From: an uncultured Flavobacteriaceae bacterium
GTDB lineage: Bacteria; Bacteroidota; Bacteroidia; Flavobacteriales; Flavobacteriaceae
NCBI GenBank assembly: GCA_947500585.1
Contig: CANMSN010000001.1
Location: 310,001-374,000 of the forward strand
DNA length: 64,000 nucleotides
Direction: 5' to 3'
The notes under the pieces were generated by a model. The model worked only from the letters and a program-made list of their open reading frames with translations, was not told the origin of the DNA and made no database searches. Made by a program: the position numbers and the translations under genes. The first letter of the stretch is position 1. Each line of letters opens with the position of its first letter. Of the stretch, positions 21,973-48,328 are shown in pieces.

Positions 21973-22010
21973 ACTGATAAGTTTGTTTGTAACGTAAAAA
22001 TAAATAAAAC

Positions 22011-22024
22011 ATGACAAATATCAT
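22011..22024 (+). promoter_or_regulatory. FNR-like box upstream of ccoI
   Basis: ATGAC-AAAT-ATCAT is a 14-bp imperfect palindrome of the FNR type (TTGAT-N4-ATCAA). It lies 22 bases before a GACTTTTG -7 element, the same spacing as at the ccoS and hemN promoters. It sits in the divergent region with the Crp/Fnr gene, so it could control both. Confidence 0.7.
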
Positions 22025-22046
22025 ATTTATAAGCAAGTTGTTTTTA

Positions 22047-22054
22047 GACTTTTG
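22047..22054 (+). promoter_or_regulatory. -7 element of the ccoI promoter
   Basis: GACTTTTG is one mismatch from TAnnTTTG and is preceded by the FNR-like box at the class II distance. It predicts a transcript start near 22059, about 22 bases before the start codon. Confidence 0.5.
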
Positions 22055-22080
22055 TTTAAGGTATAAATGAGCAAATATTT

Positions 22081-24456
22081 ATGGACACAAAAACGTGTTT
22101 CCACTGTGGATTAGACGCAAAAACTTCTGAAATCATTTTTGATTATAAATCATTTTGTTGTAATGGCTGCAAAACCGTTTACGAAATTTTTAGTGTTAAC
22201 AATTTAACATGTTATTACGATTTACAACAAACTCCAGGAGCTACACCAAAAGAAATTTCAGGTAAGTATAACTTTTTAGAAAATGCTAAAATAGTTGAGC
22301 AGTTATTGGAATTTAATGACGGAAAAACTCAAATAGTTACGTTATACATTCCGCATATTCATTGTAGTTCTTGTATTTGGATTCTTGAAAATTTGAATAA
22401 ATTAAATTCAGCTATAAACACATCTATAGTGAATTTTGGAAAAAAGACGGTTCGAGTAACCTTCAATTCTGAAATAATATCATTAAAAGATTTAGCAACA
22501 CTTTTAAGCAGTATTGGTTACGAACCATTTATAAGTTTAGACGATTATAGTGTTGGTAAAAAACATATTGATCGATCTTTAATTTACAAATTAGGCGTTG
22601 CAGGTTTCGCTTTCGGAAATGTGATGTTTTTATCGTTTCCTGAATATTTTCAGGTAGGCGAGTTTTGGTTAGAAAAGTATAAACACCTTTTTAGGTGGTT
22701 GATGTTTTTCTTTTCACTTCCAGTGGTTTTTTACTCTGCTCTAGATTATTTTATTTCAGCATTTAAAGGTCTTCGATCTAAAATTTTAAATATTGATGTA
22801 CCCATTGCTTTAGGCGTTACGGTTCTATTTGTTAGAAGTTCTGCCGAAATTATATTCGATATAGGTTCAGGTTTTTTTGATAGTTTAACAGGACTCATTT
22901 TCTTTTTACTGCTTGGTAAATTCTTTCAACAAAAAACATATACGTTTTTATCTTTTGAGCGTGACTATAAATCCTATTTCCCTATCGGGATTACGAAAAT
23001 TAAAGATGATGGAAAAGAAGAGTCTATTCAAGTATATGATATTAAAAAAGGAGATCGACTACTTATTAGAAATGAAGAACTCATTCCTGTTGATTGCATC
23101 TTAATTAAAGGAAAAGCACGTATTGATTATAGTTTTGTTACTGGCGAATCGAAAACGGTTTCGAAACAATCTGGCGACAAGCTTTTTGCTGGTGGAAAAC
23201 AGCTAGAAGGCAGCATTGAAATTGATGTTTTAAAAAGCGTTGAACAGAGTTATTTAACACAATTATGGAGTAGTGATGTCTTTAAAAAAGATAAAGAATT
23301 AGCATTCACCAATATTACAAACAGTATTAGTAAACGCTTTACTCTAGCTATTTTATTAATTGCATGTATGGCTACTTCATTTTGGTTATTAACCGATTCC
23401 AGTAAAGCGCTAAACGTATTTACATCGGTTTTAATTATTGCTTGCCCATGTGCTATTGCGCTTTCTGCGCCCTTTACTTTTGGGAATGTTTTACGGATTT
23501 TGGGTAAGAAGAAATTCTACTTAAAAAACGCTTCCGTTATTGAGCAACTGGCAAATATCAATACCATCATTTTTGATAAAACAGGAACCATTACTGCAAA
23601 TAAAGAAACTACTATAAGTTATGAAGGTTTAAATCTATCTGATGATGAAGAATCTTTGCTAAAAAGTACATTAAGAGGTTCAAATCATCCTTTAAGTAGA
23701 TCGCTTTATAATTTATTAAATGAACATGACATTATCTCACTAGATCATTTTGAAGAACATTTAGGAAAAGGCATTGAAGCTAACTATCAAAACCAAAACA
23801 TAAAAATTGGTTCTGCTCCTTTTGTAGGTTTTAAAACAGATACTGCTACTTTAAATACGGCGGTACATATTAGCACAAATAATCAATACAAAGGAAAATT
23901 CACGTTTTATAATAAGTATAGAAAAGGATTATCAAAATTATTTAACAGATTAAAAAAGGATTACGATTTAGTGATTTTATCAGGTGATAATGCTGGTGAA
24001 AAAGACAATCTCACGAAGTTACTTCCAACTAAAACCAAATTGCTTTTCAATCAAAAACCTGAAGATAAATTAGAATATATAAAATACCATCAAACTGAAG
24101 GCGCAAAAGTTTTAATGATTGGTGATGGTTTAAATGATGCTGGTGCCTTAGCGCAAAGTGATGTTGGTATTGCCATTTCTGAAAATGTGAACGTGTTTTC
24201 TCCTGCTTGCGATGCTATTTTAGATGCTTCAAAGTTCAATCAACTATACAACTATATAAACGTTTCAAAATCGGCTATAAAAATTATTAAATGGAGTTTT
24301 TTATTGTCGTTTATCTATAATATCATAGGGCTTTATTTTGCAGTAACTGGACAATTAGAGCCTGTTGTTGCTGCTATTTTAATGCCATTAAGTTCAATAA
24401 GCATTGTTGCTTTCACAACAATTACAACCAATGTTTTAACTAGAAAACTAGATTAA
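22081..24456 (+). CDS. ccoI: Copper-transporting P1B-type ATPase for cbb3 oxidase (CcoI/FixI-like)
   Basis: The protein has 791 residues. It opens with a Cys-rich metal-binding segment (CFHCGLDAK, then KSFCCNGCKTVYEIF) and a heavy-metal-associated domain with IHCSSCIW near residue 95. Transmembrane helices follow, with the ion-path motif CPCAIAL near residue 454. The phosphorylation motif DKTGTI is near residue 499 and GDGLNDAGAL near residue 681. The product pumps Cu(I) out of the cytoplasm and supplies copper for the haem-copper centre of cbb3 oxidase. The extra N-terminal Cys domain is typical of the Bacteroidota CcoI/FixI branch. It is the first gene on the plus strand of the oxidase cluster, 73 bases before ccoS, and has its own FNR-like promoter. 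Confidence 0.9.
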   Translation: MDTKTCFHCGLDAKTSEIIFDYKSFCCNGCKTVYEIFSVNNLTCYYDLQQTPGATPKEISGKYNFLENAKIVEQLLEFNDGKTQIVTLYIPHIHCSSCIWILENLNKLNSAINTSIVNFGKKTVRVTFNSEIISLKDLATLLSSIGYEPFISLDDYSVGKKHIDRSLIYKLGVAGFAFGNVMFLSFPEYFQVGEFWLEKYKHLFRWLMFFFSLPVVFYSALDYFISAFKGLRSKILNIDVPIALGVTVLFVRSSAEIIFDIGSGFFDSLTGLIFFLLLGKFFQQKTYTFLSFERDYKSYFPIGITKIKDDGKEESIQVYDIKKGDRLLIRNEELIPVDCILIKGKARIDYSFVTGESKTVSKQSGDKLFAGGKQLEGSIEIDVLKSVEQSYLTQLWSSDVFKKDKELAFTNITNSISKRFTLAILLIACMATSFWLLTDSSKALNVFTSVLIIACPCAIALSAPFTFGNVLRILGKKKFYLKNASVIEQLANINTIIFDKTGTITANKETTISYEGLNLSDDEESLLKSTLRGSNHPLSRSLYNLLNEHDIISLDHFEEHLGKGIEANYQNQNIKIGSAPFVGFKTDTATLNTAVHISTNNQYKGKFTFYNKYRKGLSKLFNRLKKDYDLVILSGDNAGEKDNLTKLLPTKTKLLFNQKPEDKLEYIKYHQTEGAKVLMIGDGLNDAGALAQSDVGIAISENVNVFSPACDAILDASKFNQLYNYINVSKSAIKIIKWSFLLSFIYNIIGLYFAVTGQLEPVVAAILMPLSSISIVAFTTITTNVLTRKLD

Positions 24457-24465
24457 AAATTAAAC

Positions 24466-24479
24466 ATGATAAAAGTCAT
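24466..24479 (+). promoter_or_regulatory. FNR-like box upstream of ccoS-ccoNO
   Basis: ATGAT-AAAA-GTCAT fits the same ATGAY-N4-RTCAT pattern as at ccoI and hemN. Its centre would be about 41 bases before the predicted transcript start, the class II activator position. Confidence 0.75.
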
Positions 24480-24501
24480 TTTTTAACAAAAAGTATGAAA
24501 G

Positions 24502-24509
24502 TACTTTTG
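24502..24509 (+). promoter_or_regulatory. -7 element of the ccoS-ccoNOQP promoter
   Basis: TACTTTTG fits TAnnTTTG exactly and lies 22 bases after the FNR-like box. It shows that the oxidase genes have a promoter separate from that of ccoI. Confidence 0.65.
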
Positions 24510-24529
24510 AACCATAACTTCAAATAGGT

Positions 24530-24715
24530 ATGAGTGTTATATATATTTTATTAGCTATAAGCATTGTTGTAGCCGTTGGTTTTTTTATCGCTTTTATCAT
24601 GGCGGTAAAAAGTGGACAGTACGATGATAGCTATACACCTTCAGTAAGAATGCTTTTTGAAGATGAACTTATTAAAGAAAAAACAAATAAGAAAATACTA
24701 ACCAAAAAAGATTAA
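24530..24715 (+). CDS. ccoS: cbb3 oxidase maturation protein CcoS
   Basis: This 61-residue protein has one N-terminal transmembrane helix (VIYILLAISIVVAVGFFIAF) and a short charged tail with the SGQYDD...PSVRMLFEDE region typical of CcoS. CcoS is needed for cofactor (haem and copper) insertion into the catalytic subunit of cbb3 oxidase, acting with CcoI. It sits between ccoI and ccoNO, its usual place in Bacteroidota, 12 bases before the oxidase gene. It is the first gene behind the second FNR-like promoter. Confidence 0.9.
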   Translation: MSVIYILLAISIVVAVGFFIAFIMAVKSGQYDDSYTPSVRMLFEDELIKEKTNKKILTKKD

Positions 24716-24727
24716 CAACTATACATT

Positions 24728-26911
24728 ATGGATTTGCAACAATTTCATTACGATAATAAAATCGTTAAAAACTTTCTCTATGCCACAATGCTTTGGGGTG
24801 TTGTTGGTATGTTAGTAGGTTTACTACTGGCGTTTATGTTTTTATTTCCAAACTTAACCGATGGCATTTCGTGGTTAAGCTTTGGTAGATTACGTCCGTT
24901 ACATACCAACGCTGTAATTTTTGCCTTTGTAGGTAATGCCATTTTTGCTGGTGTTTACTACTCTACACAACGATTGTTAAAGGCAAGAATGTTTAACGAT
25001 ACCTTAAGTAAAATAAACTTCTGGGGCTGGCAACTTATTATTGTTGGAGCAGCCATAACATTACCTTTGGGTTACACAACATCAAAAGAATATGCCGAAT
25101 TAGAATGGCCTTTTGATATTGCCATTGCTCTTATATGGGTCGTTTTTGGTTGGAATTTAATTGGTACTATTTTAAAACGAAGACAACGCCATTTATATGT
25201 AGCCATTTGGTTTTACATTGCCACTTTTGTTACCGTTGCTGTTCTTCATATTTTTAATAGTTTAGAATTACCAGTTAGTGCTTTAAAAAGTTACTCGGTT
25301 TACGCTGGGGTTCAAGATGCCCTAGTACAATGGTGGTATGGGCATAATGCGGTGGCTTTCTTTTTAACCACACCGTTTTTAGGATTGATGTACTATTTTG
25401 TACCTAAAGCTGCTAACAGGCCGGTGTATTCTTATCGACTATCAATTGTTCACTTTTGGTCGTTAATATTCATATATATTTGGGCAGGACCTCATCATTT
25501 ATTATATACAGCATTACCAGAATGGGCTCAAAATTTAGGTGTTGCATTCTCAGTTATGCTATTAATGCCATCTTGGGGTGGTATGATAAACGGACTTTTA
25601 ACCTTGCGTGGTGCTTGGGATAAAGTAAGAACCGATCCTGTTTTAAAATTCATGGTTGTAGCTATTACAGGTTACGGTATGGCAACTTTTGAAGGTCCAA
25701 CGTTATCCCTTAAAAATGTAAACGCTATCGCCCATTTTACTGACTGGATTATTGCTCACGTTCACGTAGGTGCTTTAGCTTGGAATGGTTTCTTAACCTT
25801 TGGGATGATTTATTTCTTGGTTCCTAAACTATTCAAAACAAAATTATACTCTTTAGCGTTAGCAAATCTACATTTCTGGATTGGTACTTTAGGCATTATC
25901 ATGTACGCTTTACCAATGTATGTTGCTGGATTTACGCAAGCTAGTATGTGGAAACAATTTAATCCAGATGGTACATTAACTTATGGAAACTTCTTAGAAA
26001 CCGTTACCGAAATTATGCCAATGTATTGGATGCGTGCTATTGGTGGAACTCTGTTCATAGTTGGTATGCTAATTCTAGTATACAATATTATTTTAACCAT
26101 AAAACAAGGTAGCAAGGTTGAAGATGAATTAGCTGAAGCTGCTGCTCTAGAACGCGTTACTAAAAAACGCACGTCAAGCGAAGGTTGGCACACTTGGTTA
26201 GAAAGAAGACCTATACAATTAACATTATTAGCAACCGTAGCTATTTTAATTGGAGGTGTTGTACAAATTGTACCAACTATTATGGTAAAATCTAATATTC
26301 CAACTATAGCTAGTGTAAAACCATATACACCGTTAGAATTAGAAGGTCGAGATATTTATATTCGAGAAGGTTGTGTGGGTTGCCACTCGCAAATGATTCG
26401 TCCGTTTAGAAGTGAAGTAGAACGCTATGGCGAATACTCAAAAGCTGGAGAATATGTTTACGATCATCCATTCCTTTGGGGAAGTAAACGTACTGGGCCA
26501 GATTTACATCGAGTTGGTGGTAAATATTCTGATAATTGGCATTTCAATCATATGTATGATCCGCAAAGTACCTCATCGGGTTCAATTATGCCACGTTATC
26601 CATGGTTAATAACAGGATCTTCAAGTAAACTTGATAAATCTCAAACCGAAGCCAAAATGGAAGTTATGGTAGCATTAGGTGTGCCATACACTGAAGAAGA
26701 TATAGCAAATGCTCAAACCAACATGTTAACTCAGGGCGAACAAATTGAAAAAAATCTTTATACCGATCCAGACTTTGTGATTTCATATGAGGCTGATAAA
26801 AAGTATGCCGCTGAAAACGGAGATGATTTTATTGAAATGAAGAACAGAGAAATTGTAGCATTAATAGCCTATTTACAAAGGTTAGGAACAGATATTAAAG
26901 TTGAAAATTAG
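24728..26911 (+). CDS. ccoNO: cbb3-type cytochrome c oxidase, fused subunits I and II (CcoNO)
   Basis: This 727-residue protein joins a polytopic haem-copper oxidase subunit I (about residues 1-480) to the monohaem cytochrome subunit II. Subunit I motifs include [43 protein letters not shown] and [19 protein letters not shown], with the haem and CuB histidines. The CcoO part has one transmembrane anchor (about 495-515), then [16 protein letters not shown] near residue 550 with the CxxCH haem-c site. The enzyme reduces oxygen to water with high affinity and pumps protons in the inner membrane. Fusion of CcoN and CcoO is common in Bacteroidota. It is followed by ccoQ and ccoP, so a complete oxidase is encoded here. 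Confidence 0.95.
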
Positions 26912-26930
26912 TTAATAGTTAGTAGTTGTT

Positions 26931-26961
26931 GGTTATTAGTTTTAACCATTAACTAATAACC
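26931..26961. repeat. Hairpin between ccoNO and ccoQ
   Basis: GGTTATTAGT (26931-26940) and ACTAATAACC (26952-26961) form a 10-bp stem. The surrounding words (GTTAATAGTTAGTAG, ACCAGTAACC) are repetitive. It could protect mRNA ends or be a dispersed repeat. It is not followed by a T run, so it is not a terminator. Confidence 0.55.
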
Positions 26962-26984
26962 AGTAACCAAAAACAAAAAAAATC

Positions 26985-27170
26985 ATGTTAAAATTTGTAA
27001 AAAACCATATGGAGAGTATTACTGGTATTGAGATATACCCAATCATCTCTCTACTTATCTTTTTCATCTTTTTTGTAGTGCTATTTTGGTGGGTATTTAC
27101 CGCTAAAAAAGACTATATAAAAACAGTAAGCAACATACCATTAGACAACCAAAACGACGATATATTATGA
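26985..27170 (+). CDS. ccoQ: cbb3 oxidase small subunit (CcoQ-like)
   Basis: This 61-residue protein has a single transmembrane helix (PIISLLIFFIFFVVLFWWVF) and a polar C-terminal tail with DYIKTVSNIPLD. Size, topology and position between ccoNO and ccoP identify it as the small CcoQ/FixQ-type subunit, which stabilises the complex. Sequence conservation in this family is low, so the call rests largely on context. Its stop overlaps the ccoP start (ATGA at 27167-27170), which indicates translational coupling. Confidence 0.85.
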   Translation: MLKFVKNHMESITGIEIYPIISLLIFFIFFVVLFWWVFTAKKDYIKTVSNIPLDNQNDDIL

Positions 27171-28102
27171 GACATTTAATTCCATCCTGGATTCGTGTTC
27201 CAGTAGCCTTTTTTATAATTTTCGGAGCTGTAGAGTATTTTATAGACTCAGGAGACAAACCTGCATTCGTAGAATATCCGGTTGTACTTTTATTCCTTTT
27301 TCTGGTACTTTTAATACTAATAGCCATTGAAGCTATTGTTGGTGCTCTAGAAAACGTTATGCTTCATAAACTAGATAAGGAAGCCAAAGCACGTTTTTTA
27401 GCCGAAAAAGAAAAAACAATCAAGTTTACTTGGTTAAAAAATACATACATCAAACTTCTGGGTCAAAAACCTATTGAAGAAGAACACGACATTATATTAG
27501 ACCATAATTATGATGGTATAAAAGAATTAGACAACAATTTACCACCATGGTGGCTTTATGGCTTTTATGCCTCAATTATTTTTGGAGCTATTTACCTTAT
27601 TAGATATCATATTTTTGATGGAGAAAATCAATTTGACGAATTAGAAACCGAATTAGCCGATGCCAGAATTGCTATTGAAGCTTATAAAAAAACAGCTAAA
27701 AACTTAGTAGATGTTAACACCGTAACACTTTTAACTGAAGCTGGAGATTTAGCCTCTGGAAAAACTATTTTCGAAACTAACTGCGTTGCATGTCATATGG
27801 CAGACGGAGGTGGAGGTATTGGCCCTAATTTAACTGATGAATACTGGATTTTAGGTGGCGATATAAAAAGTGTTTTCAAAACAGTTTCTGAAGGCGGACG
27901 GTCTGGAAAAGGTATGATTGCTTGGAAACAACAATTAAAACCACTTGAAATGGCTCAGGTGGCTAGCTATGTATTAACCTTTCAAGGTACAACACCAGCA
28001 AATCCTAAAGCTGCTGAAGGCAATATTTGGGTTGATAAAATTAGTGAAGAATCCACTACGGAATCCGTAGAAACAGTCATAGATTCAACAATTACAAATT
28101 AA
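27167..28102 (+). CDS. ccoP: cbb3 oxidase subunit III, membrane cytochrome c (CcoP)
   Basis: This 311-residue protein has an N-terminal membrane segment (SWIRVPVAFFIIFGAVEYF), a second hydrophobic pair (VVLLFLFLVLLILIAIEAIV) and a further helix (PPWWLYGFYASIIFGAIYLI). A periplasmic cytochrome-c domain follows, with the haem site CVACH near residue 205 and the distal GMIAWKQQLKP methionine region. Only one CxxCH is present, whereas proteobacterial CcoP carries two. It passes electrons from soluble cytochromes to CcoO. It overlaps ccoQ by four bases. A 105-bp inverted-repeat element separates it from ccoG. Confidence 0.92.
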   Translation: MRHLIPSWIRVPVAFFIIFGAVEYFIDSGDKPAFVEYPVVLLFLFLVLLILIAIEAIVGALENVMLHKLDKEAKARFLAEKEKTIKFTWLKNTYIKLLGQKPIEEEHDIILDHNYDGIKELDNNLPPWWLYGFYASIIFGAIYLIRYHIFDGENQFDELETELADARIAIEAYKKTAKNLVDVNTVTLLTEAGDLASGKTIFETNCVACHMADGGGGIGPNLTDEYWILGGDIKSVFKTVSEGGRSGKGMIAWKQQLKPLEMAQVASYVLTFQGTTPANPKAAEGNIWVDKISEESTTESVETVIDSTITN

Positions 28103-28107
28103 TATGA

Positions 28108-28212
28108 TGTCATGTTGAGTGTCCCGATTTTTATCGGAACGTATCGAGAATTATCACTAAAAAGTGTGTCGATACAAAATTTCAAAAAAACAAAATTTCA
28201 CCCGACATGACA
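28108..28212. repeat. Long inverted-repeat element between ccoP and ccoG
   Basis: The ends TGTCATGTTGAGTG and CACCCGACATGACA pair at 12 of 14 positions, and the other two would be wobble pairs. Inner arms GTATCGA (28141-28147) and TCGATAC (28169-28175) also pair. A small hairpin CCGAT-tttt-ATCGG lies at 28124-28137. It resembles a dispersed palindromic or miniature element without coding capacity. Confidence 0.65.
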
Positions 28213-28230
28213 TTAATTTAGCAACGAAAA

Positions 28231-29655
28231 GTGGAAACCCCAGAAAACGAAATATTCAGAGATTCTATTGGAACAGTTACCGAAGAAGGCAAACGTGCTT
28301 GGGTGTACCCTAAAAAACCAAGTGGCAAATTTTATGAATATAGAAAATGGGTGAGCTATTTTCTACTAGCATTTTTATTCTTGTCGCCTTTTATTAAAAT
28401 AAACGGTAACCAGTTTTTAATGTTTAATGTTTTAGAACGCCGCTTTAATATTTTCGGATTTCCATTTTGGCCGCAAGATTTTCATTTGTTTGTTATTTCC
28501 ATGTTGATTGGGGTTGTTTTCATAACACTATTCACAGTTGCCTTTGGTAGAGTTTTTTGTGGGTGGATTTGTCCGCAAACCATATTTATGGAAATGGTTT
28601 TTCGCAGAATTGAATATTGGATTGAAGGAGACAGAAACAAACAACGTAAACTAGATAGACAAAAATGGGATGCTGAAAAAATAAAAAAGCGTTTATTAAA
28701 ATGGTTTATATTTTTAATCATATCTTTTTTAATAGCTAATGTATTTCTAGCCTACTTAATAAGTGGCGATAAACTTTTACGTTATATAACTGATGGCCCT
28801 TTTCAGCACTTAAGCACCTTATTTCCGCTTATCATTTTTACTGCTGTATTCTATTTTGTTTTTGCTTGGTTCAGAGAACAAGTATGTATTATAGCCTGTC
28901 CTTACGGAAGATTACAAGGTGTTTTATTAGATAATAAATCTATTGTTGTTGCCTACGACCATAAACGTGGGGAAGCTGAAAATGGTAGAAAATCATTTAG
29001 AAAAAATGAAGACAGACAAGCTTTAGGACATGGTGATTGTATTGATTGTGTTCAATGTGTAAATGTTTGTCCAACAGGAATTGATATTAGAAACGGCACA
29101 CAATTAGAATGCGTTAATTGTACAGCTTGTATAGATGAATGCGACCATATCATGGAAAGTATTAATCTACCAAAAGGGTTAATTAGATATACAAGTGAAG
29201 AAAATATAGAGAAAAAAGCACCATTTAAATTAACGCCAAGAATTAAAGGGTACATAGCTGTTTTAACTATTTTAACTGGTTTACTAACTGGAATGCTTTT
29301 TTTAAGAAATGATGTTGAAGCTAATATTCTGAGATTACCTGGACAATTATATGAGCATAAAGAGAACAACATTATTAGCAATGTATTTACATATAAACTT
29401 GTTAATAAAACCACGGTAGATATTGAAAATGTAAGTTTCAAATTAATGTCTCATAAAGGTAAATTGAAGCTGGTTGCAACCAGTGAAAATTTTGTAGTTC
29501 CAAGTCAAGGAATTGCTAAAGGGACTTTATTTATTGAAATTAATAATACCTCCCTTTCGGGTGATAGAAATAAAATTAAAATTGGTGTTTATCAGGGTGA
29601 TGAACTTATTGAAACAACAACGGCAAACTTTTTAGGACCAAGAAGTTTTAAATAG
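28231..29655 (+). CDS. ccoG: cbb3 oxidase accessory protein CcoG (4Fe-4S ferredoxin type)
   Basis: This 474-residue membrane protein has helices near residues 45-65, 90-110, 160-180 and 190-210. It carries FGRVFCGWICPQTIFMEMVF and, in the middle, two 4Fe-4S motif sets (CIDCVQCVNVCPTG and CVNCTACIDECDH). After a last transmembrane helix, a periplasmic Ig-like domain closes the protein. CcoG acts as a cupric reductase that supplies Cu(I) for cbb3 assembly. The start is GTG at 28231 (VETPENEIFRDSIGTV); no better in-frame ATG exists before the conserved region. It belongs to the same assembly set as CcoI, CcoS and the FixH-like protein downstream. Confidence 0.93.
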   Translation: METPENEIFRDSIGTVTEEGKRAWVYPKKPSGKFYEYRKWVSYFLLAFLFLSPFIKINGNQFLMFNVLERRFNIFGFPFWPQDFHLFVISMLIGVVFITLFTVAFGRVFCGWICPQTIFMEMVFRRIEYWIEGDRNKQRKLDRQKWDAEKIKKRLLKWFIFLIISFLIANVFLAYLISGDKLLRYITDGPFQHLSTLFPLIIFTAVFYFVFAWFREQVCIIACPYGRLQGVLLDNKSIVVAYDHKRGEAENGRKSFRKNEDRQALGHGDCIDCVQCVNVCPTGIDIRNGTQLECVNCTACIDECDHIMESINLPKGLIRYTSEENIEKKAPFKLTPRIKGYIAVLTILTGLLTGMLFLRNDVEANILRLPGQLYEHKENNIISNVFTYKLVNKTTVDIENVSFKLMSHKGKLKLVATSENFVVPSQGIAKGTLFIEINNTSLSGDRNKIKIGVYQGDELIETTTANFLGPRSFK

Positions 29656-29675
29656 TTAATGGCCATTGGCTGTTT

Positions 29676-29702
29676 CCTGCAAGGTTTTAAAAACCTTGTA
29701 GG
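29676..29702. repeat. Palindromic intergenic repeat after ccoG
   Basis: CCTGCAAGGTTTT and AAAACCTTGTAGG form a 13-bp stem with one wobble pair around a single base. This type of palindrome is common between genes in Bacteroidota. It has no T run. Confidence 0.6.
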
Positions 29703-29733
29703 TATAAATTGAAAATTAATTTTAACTAAAAAC

Positions 29734-29760
29734 AGATTCTCTCCTTCGAGGGAATGACAA
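29734..29760. repeat. Half of a TGTCATTC-type element
   Basis: AGATTCTCTCCTTCGAGG followed by GAATGACAA matches one half of the element at 14666-14736. It is located just before the fixH-like start codon. Confidence 0.45.
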
Positions 29761-29772
29761 AAATATTAAGCG

Positions 29773-30219: not shown

Positions 30220-30220
30220 T

Positions 30221-30922: not shown

Positions 30923-31018
30923 ACCAATAATTTAGATAGCTTTTTACTATTAATTTTAACCATAAAATTTCATGAATGTTAATTTTTTTATAAAATTTAG
31001 TAGTTTTATTTTCTTTTG

Positions 31019-31035
31019 TAATAGTAATGCTATTA
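31019..31035. promoter_or_regulatory. Candidate TetR operator
   Basis: TAATAG-N5-CTATTA is a perfect inverted repeat with 6-bp arms. It touches the TATATTTG -7 element (31034-31041) upstream of the TetR gene, where autorepression would be expected. Confidence 0.4.
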
Positions 31036-31041
31036 TATTTG
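31034..31041 (+). promoter_or_regulatory. -7 element of the TetR-ABC-HlyD-TolC operon
   Basis: TATATTTG fits TAnnTTTG exactly, 19 bases before the ATG at 31060. A TTTG at 31015-31018 is closer than the usual -33 distance. Confidence 0.4.
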
Positions 31042-31059
31042 CGTTAAACTTAATTGATA

Positions 31060-31734
31060 ATGGAAAAATTACTATCAAATTTAAAAATAGCAGTTCCCGA
31101 AAAAATCTATGTAAAAGATCCTGAATCGTCAAATCTTGGGAAACGCATTGTAGAACATGGTATTCTATTAATTAACGAAATAGGATTTGATAGTTTTACA
31201 TTTAAAAAATTAGGAATTAGAATTGGTTCAAACGAAAGTTCTATTTACAGATATTTTGAAAGTAAACACAAACTTTTGTTATACTTATCATCTTGGTATT
31301 GGGCATGGTTAGAATATCAATTGGTATTTGAAACTCATAATATTTCAGATAAAAAGGAAAAGCTAACCAAGGCTATAGAAATTGTTACGAGAACAACCAA
31401 AGAAGATTCTAACTTCTCACATATTAATGAAGTTGTTTTAAATAATATAATCATCAATGAAAACTCAAAATCATTTTTAACCAAAGAAGTCGATCAAGAA
31501 AATAAAGATGGGTATTTTGTTATCTATAAACGCGTTGTTCTGCGTTTAAAAGACATGATTAAAGATTTAAAACCAGATTATAACTATCCTTCAAGTTTAG
31601 CTAGCACTGTTATAGAAGGCGGTTTGCATCAACACTTTTTAAAAGATCATTTTGCTTCAATCACAGATTGTAAAGAAGATGTAACACCATCAAATTTCCT
31701 AGTAAACTTAACCTTAAATACATTAAACTTATAA
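31060..31734 (+). CDS. TetR/AcrR-family regulator of an export operon
   Basis: This 224-residue protein has a TetR-type N-terminal helix-turn-helix: RIVEHGILLINEIGFDSFTF followed by KKLGIRIGSNESSIYRYFES, where the SSIYRYFESK recognition-helix end is diagnostic. The C-terminal ligand-binding half is helical and not informative. I use the ATG at 31060; an in-frame TTG six bases earlier is less likely. It leads a four-gene operon (two bases to the ABC gene) and probably represses it until the exported compound or a related ligand binds. A short inverted repeat overlaps its -7 element. Confidence 0.85.
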   Translation: MEKLLSNLKIAVPEKIYVKDPESSNLGKRIVEHGILLINEIGFDSFTFKKLGIRIGSNESSIYRYFESKHKLLLYLSSWYWAWLEYQLVFETHNISDKKEKLTKAIEIVTRTTKEDSNFSHINEVVLNNIIINENSKSFLTKEVDQENKDGYFVIYKRVVLRLKDMIKDLKPDYNYPSSLASTVIEGGLHQHFLKDHFASITDCKEDVTPSNFLVNLTLNTLNL

Positions 31735-31736
31735 CT

Positions 31737-33407
31737 ATGGCACAACCAAACATGACTCCTTGGCAACGCTTAATCGGGTTAGTTCAACTTGAAAAAAGAG
31801 ACATTCTTCAAATTTTTTACTATGCTATTTTTGCAGGTGTAGTTGCATTAACCCTACCACTGGGTATCCAGGCTATAATAAACTTAATTCAAGGTGCTCA
31901 AATATCAACATCTTGGGTAATACTTGTTATTTTGGTAACTGTTGGTGTTGCGTTCTCTGGTATTTTACAACTTATGCAAATACGTATTATTGAAACCATA
32001 CAACAACGTATTTTCATGCGGTCTTCTTTTGAATTAACATATAGATTTCCAAAAATTAAAATGACTGAGTTACGCAATTACTATCCGCCAGAATTAGCAA
32101 ACCGTTTTTTTGATACGCTGACCATTCAAAAAGGGTTATCTAAAATTTTGATAGATATTCCAACGGCTGTTTTGCAAATTTTATTTGCGCTCATATTACT
32201 ATCATTTTATCATCCATTCTTTATCATATTTGGTTTTTTATTATTAATACTAATCTTTATAGTTTTTAAATTTACAGCAAAAAGAGGCTTAGAAACCAGC
32301 CTTGTAGAATCAAAACATAAATATAAAGTTGCACACTGGATTGAGGAAATTGCCAGAACACTGATAAGCTTTAAACTTTCTGGACAGACCAATTTAGGGT
32401 TATCCAAAAATGACGATTTAGTAAATGACTATTTAAAAGCTAGAGAAAGTCATTTTAAAGTTTTGGTCATTCAGTTTATTCAAATGATAAGCTTTAAAGT
32501 TATCGTTACTGCTAGTTTACTATTAATTGGTGGTGCATTGGTTTTAAATCAGGAAATGAATATTGGGCAATTTGTTGCTGCAGAAATTATAATTCTTTTA
32601 GTAATAGCATCTGTTGAAAAACTAATTTTAGGATTAGAATCTTTTTATGATGTATTAACTTCTTTAGAAAAAATTGGTCAAATTTTAGATAAAGATATTG
32701 AAAATCAATATGCAGAAAAACCTACTTTCAAGGACAACATTACTATTGAATTAGATAAAGTATCATATAGTGTGCCTGAAAGAGAAGTACCAATAATCAA
32801 TAATATTTCTTTAAAAATACATCCTGAGAGTAGAATTTTGGTCTCAGGAGAAAGTGGTTCTGGCAAGTCTACTTTACTAAGATTAATAGCTGGAGTAATA
32901 GAATCTACTTCAGGACACATTTATGTAAACAATTTATCAATTTCTAGTTTAAATTTAAATCATTACAGAGCACAATTGGGCTTATCATTAACTGAAGAAA
33001 CGCCATTTGAAGGCAGTATAAAAGCTAATCTCACATTTGGTAATAAAGATATTACTGACGACGAGATATTTGAAACGCTTAATAATGTAGGGTTAATGGA
33101 TTTTATTAGAGAACAACCAGATGGACTAGAAACTATTTTATATCCAGATGGCAAACAAATGTCGCATACAGTTTCTAAAAAACTAGTGCTTTCTCGGGCT
33201 ATTTTAAAGAAGCCAAAAGTATTAATTCTTGAAGATGCTTTAGATAGGTTCAACCCTATTGAAACTAATTCTATAATTAAATATTTAACTCATAAAGATA
33301 GACCTTGGGCACTCATTGTAGTAAGCGGTAATGATAGTTGGAAAACTAAGTGTTCGCAAGTTATTGAATTAGATAAAGGTGAAATAAAAAATATAAATAA
33401 TGCTTAA
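31737..33407 (+). CDS. ABC transporter, fused membrane and ATPase domains, with degenerate ATPase motifs
   Basis: This 556-residue half-transporter has six membrane helices (about residues 20-300) and a C-terminal nucleotide-binding domain. Walker A is intact (GESGSGKST, 371-379). The other motifs are abnormal: the Q-loop region reads GLSLTEETPFEGS without Gln, the LSGGQ signature is replaced by HTVSKKLVLSRA (about 477-488), Walker B reads VLILEDALDRF with Glu-Asp instead of Asp-Glu, and the H-loop reads VVSGND without His. It overlaps the HlyD-type gene by 8 bases, and a TolC-type gene follows. This is the layout of a type I secretion or tripartite export system. With these changes, ATP hydrolysis may be slow or the protein may work in an unusual way. 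The substrate is unknown. Confidence 0.85.
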   Translation: MAQPNMTPWQRLIGLVQLEKRDILQIFYYAIFAGVVALTLPLGIQAIINLIQGAQISTSWVILVILVTVGVAFSGILQLMQIRIIETIQQRIFMRSSFELTYRFPKIKMTELRNYYPPELANRFFDTLTIQKGLSKILIDIPTAVLQILFALILLSFYHPFFIIFGFLLLILIFIVFKFTAKRGLETSLVESKHKYKVAHWIEEIARTLISFKLSGQTNLGLSKNDDLVNDYLKARESHFKVLVIQFIQMISFKVIVTASLLLIGGALVLNQEMNIGQFVAAEIIILLVIASVEKLILGLESFYDVLTSLEKIGQILDKDIENQYAEKPTFKDNITIELDKVSYSVPEREVPIINNISLKIHPESRILVSGESGSGKSTLLRLIAGVIESTSGHIYVNNLSISSLNLNHYRAQLGLSLTEETPFEGSIKANLTFGNKDITDDEIFETLNNVGLMDFIREQPDGLETILYPDGKQMSHTVSKKLVLSRAILKKPKVLILEDALDRFNPIETNSIIKYLTHKDRPWALIVVSGNDSWKTKCSQVIELDKGEIKNINNA

Positions 33408-34758
33408 CATATCTCATAATAAACTAAATAAAAAAGTAGATTTATCAGTTTTTAAATCTAGTAAGGATATTTTTAATAAAGACTATTACAAAACATTTAA
33501 TAAGTTTTTATTAGCGACTGCCATTGTATTATTTATTATCCTCTTTTTACCATGGACGCAGAATATTACAGGCCAAGGTTTAGTAACGACTTTAACACCA
33601 AATCAGCGACCACAAACCATACAATCTCAAATTCCTGGGCGTATTGAAGAATGGTTTGTAAGAGAGGGCGATTCTGTAAAAAAAGGAGACACCATTTTAA
33701 GAATTTCTGAAATAAAAAGTGAATATTTTGATGACCAATTAGTTGAAAGAACCAATCAGCAAATACAAGCAAAATCATCATCGGTAAATGCGTATCAAGG
33801 CAAAGTAAAGGCTCTAAACAGGCAAGTTTCGGCATTAATTAATGAACAGAAGCTTAAAATGGAACAGACCAAAAACAAGTTAATGCAAGCCAAACTTAAA
33901 GTGCAAAGCGATAGTATTGATTTTGAAGCTGCAAAAACGAATATTAAAATTGCTGAAACACAATTTAATCGTATTCAAACTCTACAAGATGAAGGTTTAA
34001 AAGCTATGAAAGATGTTGAAGAAAAACGCTTAAAGCTTCAAGAAACTCAAGCTAAACTTCTTTCTCAAGAAAATAAATATTTAGCTAGTAAAAATGAAGT
34101 AATTAATGCACAGATAGAACTTTCTAGAATTAATGCGCAATACGCCGATAAAATATCGAAAGCACAAAGCGATAAATTTACAGCGCAATCTAGTCAATTT
34201 GATACCGAAGCTCAGGTTACTAAACTTGAAAATGATTATACCAATTATAAAATTAGAAACAGTTTACTATATGTAACTGCTCCACAAAGTGGATTTATAA
34301 ATAAAGCCCTTCGCGGTGGTATTGGAGTAACCTTTAAAGAAGGTGAAGAACTTGTAGGGATTATGCCAGCTAAATATGATTTAGCAGTTGAAACATTCGT
34401 TCGCCCTATAGATTTGCCACTTCTACACCCAGGCGAAAAAGTTCGTATTCAGTTTGATGGTTGGCCAGCAATTGTTTTTAGCGGGTGGCCTAATGTTTCT
34501 TACGGTACTTATGGCGCTAAAGTTATAGCCATTGAAAGATTCATTAGTAGCAATGGAAAATATAGGGTTTTACTAGCTCCAGATGAAGAAGACCATGAGT
34601 GGCCAGAAGCAATTCGTGTAGGTTCTGGTGCTAAAACTATTGCATTATTAGAAGATGTGCCTATTTGGTTTGAGCTATGGCGACAAATTAACAGTTTCCC
34701 TCCTAATTACTATCAACCAGAAAATGGAGAATCTAGTACTAAAGACGCAAAAAAATGA
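33400..34758 (+). CDS. HlyD-family periplasmic adaptor (membrane fusion protein)
   Basis: This 452-residue protein has one N-terminal transmembrane helix (FNKFLLATAIVLFIILFLPW) and a first lipoyl half (IPGRIEEWFVREGDSVKKGD). A long coiled-coil hairpin covers about residues 110-280. The second lipoyl half is LYVTAPQSGFINKALRGGIG, followed by a beta-barrel domain. The length and coiled coil match adaptors that link an inner-membrane ABC exporter to an outer-membrane TolC channel. It overlaps the ABC gene by 8 bases and the TolC gene by 4, so the three are translationally coupled. Confidence 0.92.
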   Translation: MLNISHNKLNKKVDLSVFKSSKDIFNKDYYKTFNKFLLATAIVLFIILFLPWTQNITGQGLVTTLTPNQRPQTIQSQIPGRIEEWFVREGDSVKKGDTILRISEIKSEYFDDQLVERTNQQIQAKSSSVNAYQGKVKALNRQVSALINEQKLKMEQTKNKLMQAKLKVQSDSIDFEAAKTNIKIAETQFNRIQTLQDEGLKAMKDVEEKRLKLQETQAKLLSQENKYLASKNEVINAQIELSRINAQYADKISKAQSDKFTAQSSQFDTEAQVTKLENDYTNYKIRNSLLYVTAPQSGFINKALRGGIGVTFKEGEELVGIMPAKYDLAVETFVRPIDLPLLHPGEKVRIQFDGWPAIVFSGWPNVSYGTYGAKVIAIERFISSNGKYRVLLAPDEEDHEWPEAIRVGSGAKTIALLEDVPIWFELWRQINSFPPNYYQPENGESSTKDAKK

Positions 34759-36158
34759 AACTGAAAATATTAATCATAATACTTTCTTTCAGCAGTTTTA
34801 TTTCTGCACAAGATAGTTTAGAGGTAATTAGCTTGTCTGAATATTTAGGTTATGTAAAAACATTTCACCCTATAGTAAAACAGGCAAACTTGATAATAAA
34901 CGAAAGCGAAGCTAAACTACTAAAAGCCCGTGGTGCTTTCGACCCAAAATTAGAAGTTGATTATGACAGAAAAAAGTTTAAAAGCACCGAATATTACGAT
35001 AAACTTAATGCTGCTTTTAAAATACCAACATGGTATGGTGTAGAATTAAAAGGAAATTTTGAAGAAAATGACGGTTTATTTTTAAATCCAGAAGGAAACC
35101 TGCCAGAAGATGGTTTATATAGTGTTGGTGTTTCTGTTTCTGTGGCTCGCGGTTTACTTATCAATAAGCGTATGGCTATGTTAAAACAGTCAAAAATGTT
35201 CGTGAAACAAGCAAAAGTAGACAGACAGTTATTGGTAAATAATATTTTATATGAGGCTACACTAACCTATTTTAAATGGCTCAGAACCTATAATGAAAAA
35301 CGTGTTTATGAAGATTTTTTAGTAAACGCTAAAATGCGTTTTGATGGTATAAAGCGAAGCTATAATGCTGGTGAAATGTCTGCCATAGATACCGTTGAAG
35401 CACGAATTGCATTAAACGATAGAAAACTAAATCTTGAGAAATCTAGAATTAAGTTTGTAAAATCATCATTAGAACTTTCTAATTATTTATGGTTAAACGA
35501 AAACACACCAATAGAAATAAAAGATAATGTAATTCCAGATTTAAATACATTCCAATCGGTAGATGTTACTTTAAATACTTCGGAATTAGATATTGAAAGC
35601 TTAGACATCACTAATCATCCAAAGCTTCAATCATTAGACTATAAATTACAAAGTTTAAATATTGAAAAACGATTAAAACTTAATAATTTACTACCAAAAA
35701 TAGATTTACAGTATAATTTTTTATCTGAAACACCAGATATTTCTAGGTCTTTTAGTACTGCGGCTTATAAAAGTGGATTGAATATTAGTTTTCCGTTATT
35801 CTTAAGAAAAGAACGTGGTGATTTAAGGTTAGCAAAACTTAAAATGCAGGATACTAAATTCGAAATTCAATCTACAGAAGTGACTTTAAAAAACAAAATT
35901 GATGCTATAAATCAAGAACTTGAGTCTTTTGTTTCACAAAATGAATTTACTCGTGTTATCGTTGATGATTATGGTACCATGTTAAAAGCAGAGGAACGCA
36001 AATTCTTTTTAGGTGAAAGCTCTTTGTTTTTAGTAAACTCAAGAGAGTCTAAACTTATAGATGCTAAATTAAAAGCGATTGAATTAGAGAATAATTTTTT
36101 CAACACCAAAGCAGGTTTATTTAATGTTTTAGCCATATCAGATGTTGATATTAACTAA
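34755..36158 (+). CDS. TolC-family outer-membrane channel protein
   Basis: The protein has 467 residues with a signal peptide (MKLKILIIILSFSSFISAQ). It is made of long amphipathic helices in two structural repeats, typical of TolC/OEP proteins (TYNEKRVYEDFLVNAKMRFD and IDTVEARIALNDRKLNLEKS in the first half; PKIDLQYNFL and SGLNISFPLFLRKERGDLRL in the second). It forms the trimeric exit duct of the tripartite system with the HlyD adaptor and the ABC transporter. It is the last gene of the TetR-led operon and is followed directly by a terminator. Confidence 0.92.
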   Translation: MKLKILIIILSFSSFISAQDSLEVISLSEYLGYVKTFHPIVKQANLIINESEAKLLKARGAFDPKLEVDYDRKKFKSTEYYDKLNAAFKIPTWYGVELKGNFEENDGLFLNPEGNLPEDGLYSVGVSVSVARGLLINKRMAMLKQSKMFVKQAKVDRQLLVNNILYEATLTYFKWLRTYNEKRVYEDFLVNAKMRFDGIKRSYNAGEMSAIDTVEARIALNDRKLNLEKSRIKFVKSSLELSNYLWLNENTPIEIKDNVIPDLNTFQSVDVTLNTSELDIESLDITNHPKLQSLDYKLQSLNIEKRLKLNNLLPKIDLQYNFLSETPDISRSFSTAAYKSGLNISFPLFLRKERGDLRLAKLKMQDTKFEIQSTEVTLKNKIDAINQELESFVSQNEFTRVIVDDYGTMLKAEERKFFLGESSLFLVNSRESKLIDAKLKAIELENNFFNTKAGLFNVLAISDVDIN

Positions 36159-36159
36159 T

Positions 36160-36195
36160 AAAAAAGGATTCACATAATTTGTGACTCCTTTTTCG
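36160..36195. terminator. Bidirectional terminator between tolC-type and usp genes
   Basis: AAAAAGGA...TCCTTTTT with an inner TTCACA/TGTGA pairing. It serves both the plus-strand export operon and the minus-strand hemN-usp unit. Confidence 0.7.
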
Positions 36196-36225
36196 TCTAG
36201 TTAGTAATTATAGTAATCCTAAATA

Positions 36226-37059
36226 TTAAATTTTAAAAGTGATTACTGGTAATGTGGCATGATTTGCAACATCTTCTCCTATACTCCCTTCAAAAAAATG
36301 TGCTAAACCCTTTTTACCATGTGTAGGTATAGCAATTAAGTCTGCTCCTATTTTATTGGAAAAATTTAAAATCCCATCTTCAACGGTATAATCAGATACA
36401 TAATGTACATCCTCCATTTTATCTATGTTACCTTCAGCTTGTGTGAAAAAGTTAAATACGCGCTTCTCCATTTCTTGCGAACTTTTAAATCTATCATTTG
36501 GTAAATTTACGTATACGAAATACACTTTTGAGCCTGTTTTACTAAACATATCAATAGCTTTTTTATAAGCGTCAATGCATTCTTCTGAAAAATCGCAAGC
36601 AAAAGTTACGACATCAAAATTTATTTGCGTTATGGTATTTTTAACAACTAAAACAGGAATTTCAGCATTTCTAACAACACGCTCGGTATTAGATCCTACA
36701 AAAAACTCCATAACACCACTTGTGCCGTGAGATCCCATCACTATAAGGTCTGCATCATGTTTTTTTGCAACATCATCTACTTCACTAAATACTTTAAAAT
36801 GCTTAACAATTGGCGTCACTTTTATATCTTTTAAATAATCCTTCTCTAAAAAATCTTCAAACTTTTGTTCTGCCAACTTAAAAAAGAAAACTGTTTTTTG
36901 AGATTGCAACTCATCTGAAGAGGTAAGCATCAAGTCAGACATTTCAAGCATGTGTAGCACTAATAATTCTGCATCATTTTTCTTTGCTAATTTAGCAGCA
37001 GTTTTTAATGCATATTCTGAGTGTTCAGAAAAATCTACGGGTACAATAATTTTTTTCAT
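36226..37059 (-). CDS. Universal stress protein, tandem UspA domains
   Basis: This 277-residue protein consists of two UspA domains. The first (about 1-142) opens KKIIVPVDFSEHSEYALKTA and holds the nucleotide-binding loop MGSHGTSGVMEFFVGSNTER. The second (about 148-277) opens FDVVTFACDFSEECIDAY and ends PTHGKKGLAHFFEGSIGEDV. Tandem Usp proteins are often induced in low oxygen or stationary phase. It lies 28 bases after the hemN stop on the same strand, so it is probably transcribed from the FNR-like hemN promoter. The physiological partner is unknown. Confidence 0.9.
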   Translation of the reverse strand: MKKIIVPVDFSEHSEYALKTAAKLAKKNDAELLVLHMLEMSDLMLTSSDELQSQKTVFFFKLAEQKFEDFLEKDYLKDIKVTPIVKHFKVFSEVDDVAKKHDADLIVMGSHGTSGVMEFFVGSNTERVVRNAEIPVLVVKNTITQINFDVVTFACDFSEECIDAYKKAIDMFSKTGSKVYFVYVNLPNDRFKSSQEMEKRVFNFFTQAEGNIDKMEDVHYVSDYTVEDGILNFSNKIGADLIAIPTHGKKGLAHFFEGSIGEDVANHATLPVITFKI

Positions 37060-37087
37060 GGTATCTTTTTTTAGGTTAAACTGTCAT

Positions 37088-38440
37088 TTAAAACAATTGC
37101 GTATTGGGTTGTTTTCTTTGTAATAATAAATCAAAAGCCATACAAACATTTCTTATAAATGGTTGCCCTTTTGCTGTTACTTCAATACTATTTGAATGTA
37201 TATGAAGTAACCCATCATTTTCCATTTCCTTTAAACGTATCAAAGTTTCTGGAAGTTGTTTAAAATAGAGATTTTCCTTTGTCCAACTTGTTTTAAATTG
37301 ACACATTAAATCTAAAATATGTTTTCTAATAATTAAATCTTCTTCATTTAAAATATGCCCTCTATAAACTGGTAAAATATTATTTTTTAATAAATTATAA
37401 TAACTTTCAATACCTTTTACATTTTGAGAAAAACCATACCAACTATCACTAATTGAAGATACGCCTAAACCAATCATAGCTTGTGTTTTTGAGGCGGTAT
37501 ACCCCATAAAATTTCTATGCAATTTATTAGTTATAAGAGATTTGTAAAGCGAATCTGTAGGTAGTGCAAAATGATCCATCCCTATTTCATGGTATCCAAC
37601 TTCTTTAAGTAATGCTTTCCCTAATTCGTATTGCTGTCTTTTTATATGAGCAGATGGCAAATCAGAATCTTTAAAACCACGTTGCCCGTTTCCTATTATC
37701 CATGGTACATGCGCATAACTATAAAATGCCAAACGATCTGGAAATAACGATTTTGTTTTTAAAATCGTTTCCTTTACATGCTCTAATTTTTGAAACGGTA
37801 AACCGAAAATAATATCATGCCCAACAGATGTATAGCCAATTTCTCTAGCGGCTTCTGTTGCTTGCTTTACGTTTTCAAAAGGTTGAATTCTGTGTATAGC
37901 CTTTTGCACGGTTTCATTATAGTCTTGTACGCCGTAGCTAACACGCCTAAAACCTACATCATATAATGCTTGTAAATGTTCTGAAGTTGTATTGTTTGGG
38001 TGACCTTCAAAACTAAATTCATAACCTTCAGCAAGTTCAGATCGTTTCAAAATACCATTAATTAAGTATTTTAAATTATCTGGACTAAAAAATGTTGGTG
38101 TTCCACCACCGAGATGTAATTCTTTAATTATAGGTTTTTCATCAAACAATTCTAAATATAAATTCCATTCTTTTAAAACCGCATTTATATAAGGCGACTC
38201 TACACTGTGCTGTTTCGTAATGCGCTTGTTGCAACCGCAAAATGTGCATAAACTTTCACAAAAAGGTAAATGAATATAAAGACTTATACCTTCTTTTGAG
38301 TTACTTTCTTGAAATGAATTTATCACAGACTTTTTCCAATTTTCCAAAGAAAAACTATTAGAATTCCAATACGGAACCGTTGGATAACTCGTGTAACGAG
38401 GACCCGCTATATTATATTTATTTACTAACGAACTTAACAT
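37088..38440 (-). CDS. hemN: Oxygen-independent coproporphyrinogen III dehydrogenase
   Basis: This 450-residue radical-SAM enzyme converts coproporphyrinogen III to protoporphyrinogen IX without oxygen in haem synthesis. The iron-sulfur motif is CESLCTFCGC (CxxxCxxC), near residue 65. It is preceded by PRYTSYPTVPYWNSNSF, and GGGTPTFF and FGLPFQ follow; all are typical of HemN, as opposed to HemW. I choose the ATG at 38440: the predicted transcript start from the -7 element at 38458-38465 falls near 38453, which leaves almost no leader for the upstream ATG at 38449. The FNR-like box at 38488-38501 suggests induction in low oxygen, matching the enzyme's use. Confidence 0.93.
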   Translation of the reverse strand: MLSSLVNKYNIAGPRYTSYPTVPYWNSNSFSLENWKKSVINSFQESNSKEGISLYIHLPFCESLCTFCGCNKRITKQHSVESPYINAVLKEWNLYLELFDEKPIIKELHLGGGTPTFFSPDNLKYLINGILKRSELAEGYEFSFEGHPNNTTSEHLQALYDVGFRRVSYGVQDYNETVQKAIHRIQPFENVKQATEAAREIGYTSVGHDIIFGLPFQKLEHVKETILKTKSLFPDRLAFYSYAHVPWIIGNGQRGFKDSDLPSAHIKRQQYELGKALLKEVGYHEIGMDHFALPTDSLYKSLITNKLHRNFMGYTASKTQAMIGLGVSSISDSWYGFSQNVKGIESYYNLLKNNILPVYRGHILNEEDLIIRKHILDLMCQFKTSWTKENLYFKQLPETLIRLKEMENDGLLHIHSNSIEVTAKGQPFIRNVCMAFDLLLQRKQPNTQLF

Positions 38441-38457
38441 ACCTAACATTTATAATT

Positions 38458-38465
38458 CAAAAGTA
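38458..38465 (-). promoter_or_regulatory. -7 element of the hemN promoter
   Basis: On the minus strand this reads TACTTTTG, identical to the ccoS promoter element and at the same 22-base distance from its FNR-like box. Confidence 0.65.
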
Positions 38466-38487
38466 TAAGAAACCTTAATCTTAAAAT

Positions 38488-38501
38488 ATGATATATGTCA
38501 T
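38488..38501 (-). promoter_or_regulatory. FNR-like box upstream of hemN
   Basis: ATGAT-ATAT-GTCAT as written on the plus strand (ATGAC-ATAT-ATCAT on the minus strand). It is the third ATGAY-N4-RTCAT site and lies in the divergent hemN/sodC region. Confidence 0.75.

Positions 38502-47023: not shown

Positions 47024-48328
<1,305 letters not shown>

Follow-up and report, generated by a model that had tools for sequence, protein, structure and literature searches.

One fixed FNR-type promoter design probably serves low-oxygen respiration and heme-synthesis genes in a Flavobacteriaceae bacterium and its relatives

The window studied here is a stretch of 64,000 nucleotides from an uncultured Flavobacteriaceae bacterium (GenBank assembly GCA_947500585.1, contig CANMSN010000001.1, positions 310,001 to 374,000 of the forward strand), and our subject is three copies of the palindromic box ATGAY-N4-RTCAT that lie upstream of ccoI, of ccoS-ccoNOQP and of hemN (Table 1). 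We judge with good confidence that an FNR-type regulon responsive to oxygen uses these sites as class II activator sites; binding to the boxes, an iron-sulfur cluster, the direction of regulation and autorepression are inferred parts of this reading. According to this view, an FNR-like regulator acting from a constant position very probably switches on genes for low-oxygen respiration and heme synthesis. A first-pass annotation of the window had proposed FNR-type promoters at these genes, and the enrichment, spacing, conservation and gene content of the sites described below support such an assignment at the level of sequence.

All three sites fit the pattern as that annotation claimed, and each is followed, in the direction of its gene, by exactly 22 bases and then a -7 element. 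The element had been described as ending in ACTTTTG; it is present at all three sites, but its consensus is TAnnTTTG. The box without a -7 element is little above chance in the window, with 15 occurrences at up to one mismatch versus 9.43 expected, a number reached in 6 of 100 shuffles. When the box was combined with the 22-base spacing and xAxxTTTG (the first -7 base left free), the window held three perfect matches, as many as were reached in one of 100 shuffles, and 0.21 matches were expected with one mismatch allowed. The exact box has a fourth copy in the window, at 47871-47884, which was rejected as a promoter box; it lies within a 430-amino-acid (aa) reading frame and has no -7 element.

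The class II position of CRP and FNR is -41.5. Passages of a study of Flavobacterium psychrophilum place its -7 box TAnnTTTG at -12 to -5 (PMC9723704), so that a spacing of 22 bases puts the box at -48 to -35 and its center at -41.5, in agreement with the earlier suggestion of a class II site about 41 bases before the transcript start. The predicted ccoI start falls on a conserved AGGTA, at 22059-22063 and in relatives, and the consensus past the ccoI -7 element is taacAGGTAtAA (88 distinct promoters). T occupies spacer positions 2-5 (-33 to -30) in 75-100% of the ccoI, ccoS and hemN promoters, a promoter-like feature that would fit a palindrome and -7 element forming a constitutive promoter element and no regulator site; in 60 other sites, T makes up only 47-78%. 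We regard a constitutive element as very improbable, because the palindrome is two-fold symmetric, has the Crp/Fnr form, is kept at particular genes, and is rare in genomes without either of the two regulators described below.

Box 1 is placed to act in two directions. Among 86 distinct fnr-ccoI gaps, 67 have TAnnTTT 8 bases from the box in the fnr direction, and any other spacing accounts for at most 6; 36 of the 67 end in G, the full -7 consensus, and 31 in A, the type found in the window. Counted from the fnr start, the box would therefore cover -34 to -21 and overlie the -33 region, which predicts that Fnr represses its own gene while activating ccoI. To judge by position, then, box 1 probably doubles as an fnr autorepression site.

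Across the 3.757-Mb genome from which the window comes, the exact box occurs 33 times and the reversed pattern 30 times, and the box alone was accordingly rejected as a genome marker. A mechanical reading-frame call assigns 14 of the 33 to intergenic DNA, two of them (L003 and L026) running into the opening bases of a predicted frame, and 19 to the interior of predicted genes. A -7-like element, meaning TAnnTTTG with no more than one of its six fixed positions changed, stands at spacing 22 for 10 of the 14 intergenic boxes versus 1 of the 19 in-gene boxes. At other offsets around the intergenic boxes, 9 of 420 positions are -7-like (both numbers counted by hand), giving a binomial P of 1.9e-10 for 10 of 14. 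The ten promoters belong to ccoI, ccoS, hemN, phosphate acetyltransferase (pta, whose match ends at the locus edge), malate dehydrogenase, and thioredoxin-like, YceI-like, CBS-domain, TonB C-terminal-domain and anion-transporter-like genes. As a separate observation, C4:3347-3390 holds a CRP-like box, GTGAC-N4-GTCAC, followed by 22 bases and TATTTTTG, an identical spacing, about 2 kb from another Crp-type helix-turn-helix (HTH) match at C4:1333.

We compared 100 loci around fnr, many of them from Winogradskyella or Tenacibaculum and with some genomes duplicated (L092/L129, L096/L153 and L087/L124). In most of them fnr and the ccoI-ccoS-ccoN genes point away from each other. If the two outermost bases of the box may vary, 93 of 96 loci have a box ahead of ccoI and 90 of 91 have one ahead of ccoS; xAxxTTTG follows at 22 in 89 and 78 of these, respectively, and 86 ccoI and 77 ccoS promoters with this spacing are distinct. 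The strict pattern is found at ccoI in 67 loci (65 with spacing 22) and at ccoS in 82 (77 with spacing 22), the first box base being C or G in 25 of the 93 ccoI promoters. In these cco-cluster loci no hemN gene (0 of 21) has a box within 260 bases upstream, and hemN was therefore examined on its own, in the 30 best matches to it among 120 genomes of the family. Of these 30 loci, the window's own included, 29 have a box and 28 have xAxxTTTG at 22, with TACTTTCG there in one. In 13 of the 21 cco-cluster loci hemN lies between ccoI and ccoS, where the ccoI promoter may serve it as well.

The spacing itself is conserved. Among 345 distinct oriented ATGAY sites in the 100 fnr loci, TAnnTTTG stands at 22 for 82 and at 8 for 27, with at most 3 at each other spacing, and none of 36 oriented TTGAY sites in these loci has TAnnTTTG at 22. 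The first-pass annotation had proposed a scan of this genome and of related Flavobacteriaceae, and over the 120 family genomes the full exact pattern gave 441 matches in 97 genomes versus a single match for the reversed control. Spacing 21 gave 30 matches in 21 genomes with 4 in the control, and a few spacing-21 promoters may thus be real. TTGAT-N4-ATCAA with the same spacing gave 10 matches in 7 genomes (control 2); since this box is fourfold more restricted than the ATGAY box, an even share for it would have been about 110. The ATGAY half-site, rather than the TTGAT of the classical box, is thereby borne out, and chance was rejected by the spacing, reversed-pattern, spacing-21 and TTGAT controls. 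The design extends past the family, more thinly: 198 genomes of the class yielded 206 matches in 78 genomes (control 2), 188 of them outside the family. The outcome that the first-pass annotation would have counted as a refutation, no enrichment of the motif upstream of respiratory genes, was thus not observed: the correctly spaced motif is strongly overrepresented, precedes genes of respiration, heme synthesis and fermentation, and is conserved in the family.

For the gene content in relatives we also read 60 further sites in 15 genomes, hand-picked among the matches listed and with sites at ccoS and hemN left out; downstream genes were grouped by BLAST and named from one or two scanned members per group. 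The first downstream genes encode thioredoxin-like proteins (8, plus that of the own genome), c-type cytochrome lipoproteins (7), HPF/S30AE (5), NadA (4), universal stress proteins (Usp, 3), and two each of Pta (plus the own genome's), PEPCK, alginate-export-type, 149-aa-type cytochrome c and glyoxalase-fold proteins, with PFL, PPDK, a pyruvate-kinase-barrel protein, NosL and CcoN as singletons. Many of these genes belong to low-oxygen metabolism, and several of the singletons do not obviously do so. A protein of about 600 aa with HSFHIPVMGIG near its start lies behind the box in three genera (L264, L275 and L294), and the one member scanned had no Pfam match at 1e-5.

The candidate regulator is the Crp/Fnr protein encoded divergently from ccoI, which the first-pass annotation had credited with four candidate cluster cysteines. 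Pfam finds a cNMP-binding-type sensor domain (PF00027) and a Crp-type HTH (PF13545), and the best NCBIfam hit, PRK11161.1, scores 102.8 bits versus an FNR cut-off of 228. Four cysteines, C4, C7, C53 and C106, are conserved, being Cys in all 130 homologous sequences (121 of them distinct), with C29 in 118 and C59 in 120; but only three, C4, C7 and C106, line up with FNR ligands (C20, C23 and C122 of Escherichia coli), so that four Cys ligands in the E. coli arrangement are not found. The box likewise has the form ATGAY-N4-RTCAT instead of TTGAT-N4-ATCAA. In the recognition helix, E191, I194 and R195 occur in all 130 sequences, and the Ile, standing where FNR has Ser, may explain the ATGAY half-site. 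An AlphaFold model of the protein (mean predicted local distance difference test score 77.9, predicted template-modeling score 0.56) matches 2gau best, with Aliivibrio fischeri FNR at ranks 9 (9qly) and 17 (5e44), among others.

Certain relatives seem to use another oxygen-sensing system to read these sites. Taking a best E value below 1e-58 as this Fnr, 69 of the 120 family genomes have it, 32 have only distant Crp/Fnr matches and 19 have none at 1e-20. We inspected 15 Fnr-less genomes, mostly chosen for many boxes, and of the 20 hits in 13 of these, 17 are about 350 aa long and start with a receiver domain. The four that were scanned combine receiver, cNMP-binding and Crp HTH domains, and these receiver-Crp proteins have the same E...I-R helix. 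In all 12 Fnr-less loci read (L353-L364), the receiver-Crp gene directly follows a kinase gene, and the five kinases scanned against Pfam have PAS, HisKA and HATPase domains. Against the Protein Data Bank (14 sequences at 1e-5), the PAS domain of the L361 kinase matches FixL, DosP and other heme-PAS sensors and one further kinase. The heme His and distal Arg of FixL (1d06) are aligned in it, and the His is kept in 12 of 12 kinases and the Arg in 11 of 12 (Met in L355), so that these proteins have the FixL-type order of a PAS domain with both residues, then HisKA-HATPase. The kinase encoded before the receiver-Crp gene thus appears to be a predicted FixL-like heme-PAS oxygen sensor. Two side observations concern the same genes: in Fnr-less loci a boxed gene of about 280 aa often follows the kinase and receiver-Crp pair, the one scanned being a Usp, and in eight genomes (G110, G134, G153, G121, G061, G071, G159 and G173) fnr and the receiver-Crp gene are neighbors, no more than about 1 kb apart.

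The promoter design is retained alongside this second system. Counting a receiver-Crp protein as a hit at 1e-100 or better, 25 of 27 Fnr-less genomes with one keep the full pattern. In the 12 Fnr-less loci TAnnTTTG stands at 22 for 22 of 70 oriented [AC]TGAY sites and elsewhere for one, and a box lies directly upstream of ccoI in 3 of 4 cases and of hemN in 1 of 1; the hemN genes of Fnr-less G056 and G027 are also boxed. Sorted by regulator, sites number 145 in 23 genomes with both, 186 in 46 with Fnr only, 99 in 27 with receiver-Crp only and 11 in 24 with neither. The mean per genome is 4.04 for Fnr only versus 0.46 for neither (P 1.3e-9), and receiver-Crp only versus neither gives P 1.4e-7, these values and those that follow assuming independent genomes, an assumption that is not fully correct. 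The association persisted when only genomes of at least 2.5 Mb were counted, with 179 sites in 43 Fnr-only genomes (mean 4.16; P 4.3e-5) and 96 in 25 receiver-Crp-only genomes (P 2.0e-4) versus 4 in 8 genomes with neither (mean 0.5).

Several observations weigh against reading the boxes as sites of an FNR-type oxygen regulon under this Fnr. Of the 14 intergenic boxes in the own genome, four lack a -7-like element at 22 (L002, C7:66837 in L021, L023 and L026); the L023 box, C8:126713, lies between hemA and an AraC-type regulator gene. The pattern is missing from two of the 46 Fnr-only genomes, and it occurs 11 times in 5 of the 24 with neither regulator, 6 of these in a single genome that is 82% complete. 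The group of 24 is also a poor control: 13 are under 2 Mb, and 23 lack hemN at 1e-120, which 81 of the 96 others have, so that part of the drop in sites comes from the loss of targets. Finally, the position of the E. coli C29 ligand is never Cys in the 130 sequences (Asn in 117, Ser in 12 and a gap in 1), and therefore either the ligands differ or there is no cluster.

With only three of the four FNR ligand positions occupied by Cys, the regulator might be a Crp/Fnr sensor of nitric oxide, carbon monoxide or thiol redox and not a [4Fe-4S] oxygen sensor, the more so as passages of PMC8510549 describe FNR and DNR motifs as highly similar. We consider this unlikely in view of the invariance of C4, C7, C53 and C106, of targets such as the cbb3 oxidase, hemN and PFL, and of the heme-PAS kinase, similar to FixL, that accompanies receiver-Crp in other genera. 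The boxes could also be activator sites bound mainly by another Crp/Fnr protein, as the own genome has four Crp-type HTH genes over the Pfam cut-off. One of these, the paralogue at C3:19947-20582 (L193), has C-X2-C-X4-C in SCDACVNSTC and a later Cys in TILCYF, a cysteine spacing nearer that of classical FNR than in the window's fnr. Its relative L328 has E and I-R at the equivalent recognition-helix places, and with its related helix the paralogue could share the boxes. That it is the main reader seems to us rather improbable: the fnr gene next to ccoI has a box in its own promoter region across genera, and the number of sites tracks this Fnr or receiver-Crp, also at 2.5 Mb and above, although the 24 genomes with neither were not sorted by paralogue, so that this comparison is not clean.

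The reading we favor, an FNR-type oxygen regulon, suggests the following mechanism. At low oxygen, a dimer of the divergently encoded Fnr would bind ATGAY-N4-RTCAT at -48 to -35 and touch RNA polymerase carrying the main Bacteroidota sigma factor, the presumed reader of the TAnnTTTG -7 element. It would thereby turn on ccoI, ccoS-ccoNOQP, hemN-usp and about seven more promoters in the own genome, and at box 1 the same dimer, covering -34 to -21 of the fnr promoter, would probably repress fnr. In F. psychrophilum, cbb3 oxidase and heme enzymes rise with oxygen limitation, according to passages of PMC9723704. More broadly, we lean slightly towards the view that flavobacteria, and probably other Bacteroidia, use one fixed low-oxygen promoter design, a box at -41.5 with TAnnTTTG, that is served by interchangeable sensors. 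Some genera would rely on an Fnr whose cysteine set (C-X2-C, C53 and C106) is new, others on a receiver-Crp fusion paired with a FixL-like kinase, and some on both, with the fnr-ccoI box activating ccoI and repressing fnr.

The start of hemN in Table 1 was set at the second Met because a Met lies 16-20 bases past the -7 element in 29 of 29 boxed loci. The universal stress protein gene that follows perhaps shares the hemN transcript.

Table 1. Promoter elements and genes of the window
Feature	Coordinates	Strand	Remarks
Box 1, ATGACAAATATCAT	22011..22024	read on +	common to the divergent fnr and ccoI promoters; kept 5' of ccoI in relatives
ccoI -7 element, GACTTTTG	22047..22054	+	exactly 22 bases past box 1; predicted start ~22059
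fnr likely -7 element, TATTTTTA	21995..22002	-	8 bases from box 1, fnr direction
Box 2, ATGATAAAAGTCAT	24466..24479	read on +	5' of ccoS
ccoS-ccoNOQP -7 element, TACTTTTG	24502..24509	+	exactly 22 bases past box 2; predicted start ~24514
Box 3, ATGACATATATCAT	38488..38501	read on -	5' of hemN
hemN -7 element, TACTTTTG	38458..38465	-	exactly 22 bases past box 3; predicted start ~38453
fnr-like gene, 225 aa from conserved Met	21295..21972	-	cNMP_binding and HTH_Crp_2 domains
ccoI-type heavy-metal P-type ATPase gene	22081..24456	+	named by family and place
ccoS	24530..24715	+	TIGR00847, FixS
Fused ccoN-ccoO	24728..26911	+	
61-aa reading frame in ccoQ place	26985..27170	+	without NCBIfam match
ccoP-like gene	27167..28102	+	TIGR00782, 107.8 bits, under cut-off 179.95
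ccoG	28231..29655	+	
hemN, from second Met (38440)	37088..38440	-	
Universal stress protein gene	36226..37059	-	28 bases past hemN

The principle that FNR controls the cbb3 oxidase is already known. What appears new here is the half-site, the constant way in which the box fits the Bacteroidota -7 element, a box with two uses, the set of cysteines and the exchange of sensors; among the publications listed in the literature we surveyed, which covered few subscription journals, there is no description of such a promoter rule. The rule can be searched for and tested as a guide to how genes are controlled at low oxygen in a large group of bacteria from sea and soil. The system also offers a candidate for a new set of ligands of an FNR-type cluster, and a natural experiment: the oxygen sensor is exchanged, and the DNA sites and the genes they serve are retained.

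E. coli FNR represses its own gene, as is predicted here for Fnr. The window's regulator resembles the FNR proteins of E. coli and A. fischeri in its Crp/Fnr fold, its N-terminal C-X2-C and the Cys at the C122 position, and its promoters resemble FNR class II promoters in their symmetric box at -41.5 and their low-oxygen metabolism targets. Unlike FNR, it goes with an ATGAY and not a TTGAT half-site and would work with a TAnnTTTG -7 element, has the helix T-E-S-x-I-R where FNR has V-E-T-I-S-R, and lacks Cys at the third ligand position, C53 being conserved instead. The -7 element at -12 to -5 and the presence of cbb3 oxidase and heme-synthesis genes are shared with the oxygen-limitation response of F. 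psychrophilum as given in passages of PMC9723704, whose main text contains "crp" and "hemN" 0 times and whose passages name no regulator or box for that response. The comparison extends to the alphaproteobacteria in that the cbb3 oxidase, its copper ATPase and hemN would come under low-oxygen Crp/Fnr control, as with FnrN/FnrL and FixK, and that the receiver-Crp system of flavobacterial relatives has a heme-PAS kinase of the FixL type. There, FnrN/FnrL and FixL-FixJ/FxkR-FixK control fixNOQP and hemN. Whereas FixJ and FixK are separate proteins, the flavobacterial kinase gene precedes a receiver-Crp fusion, and in flavobacteria, unlike alphaproteobacteria, two sensor types go with one promoter design.

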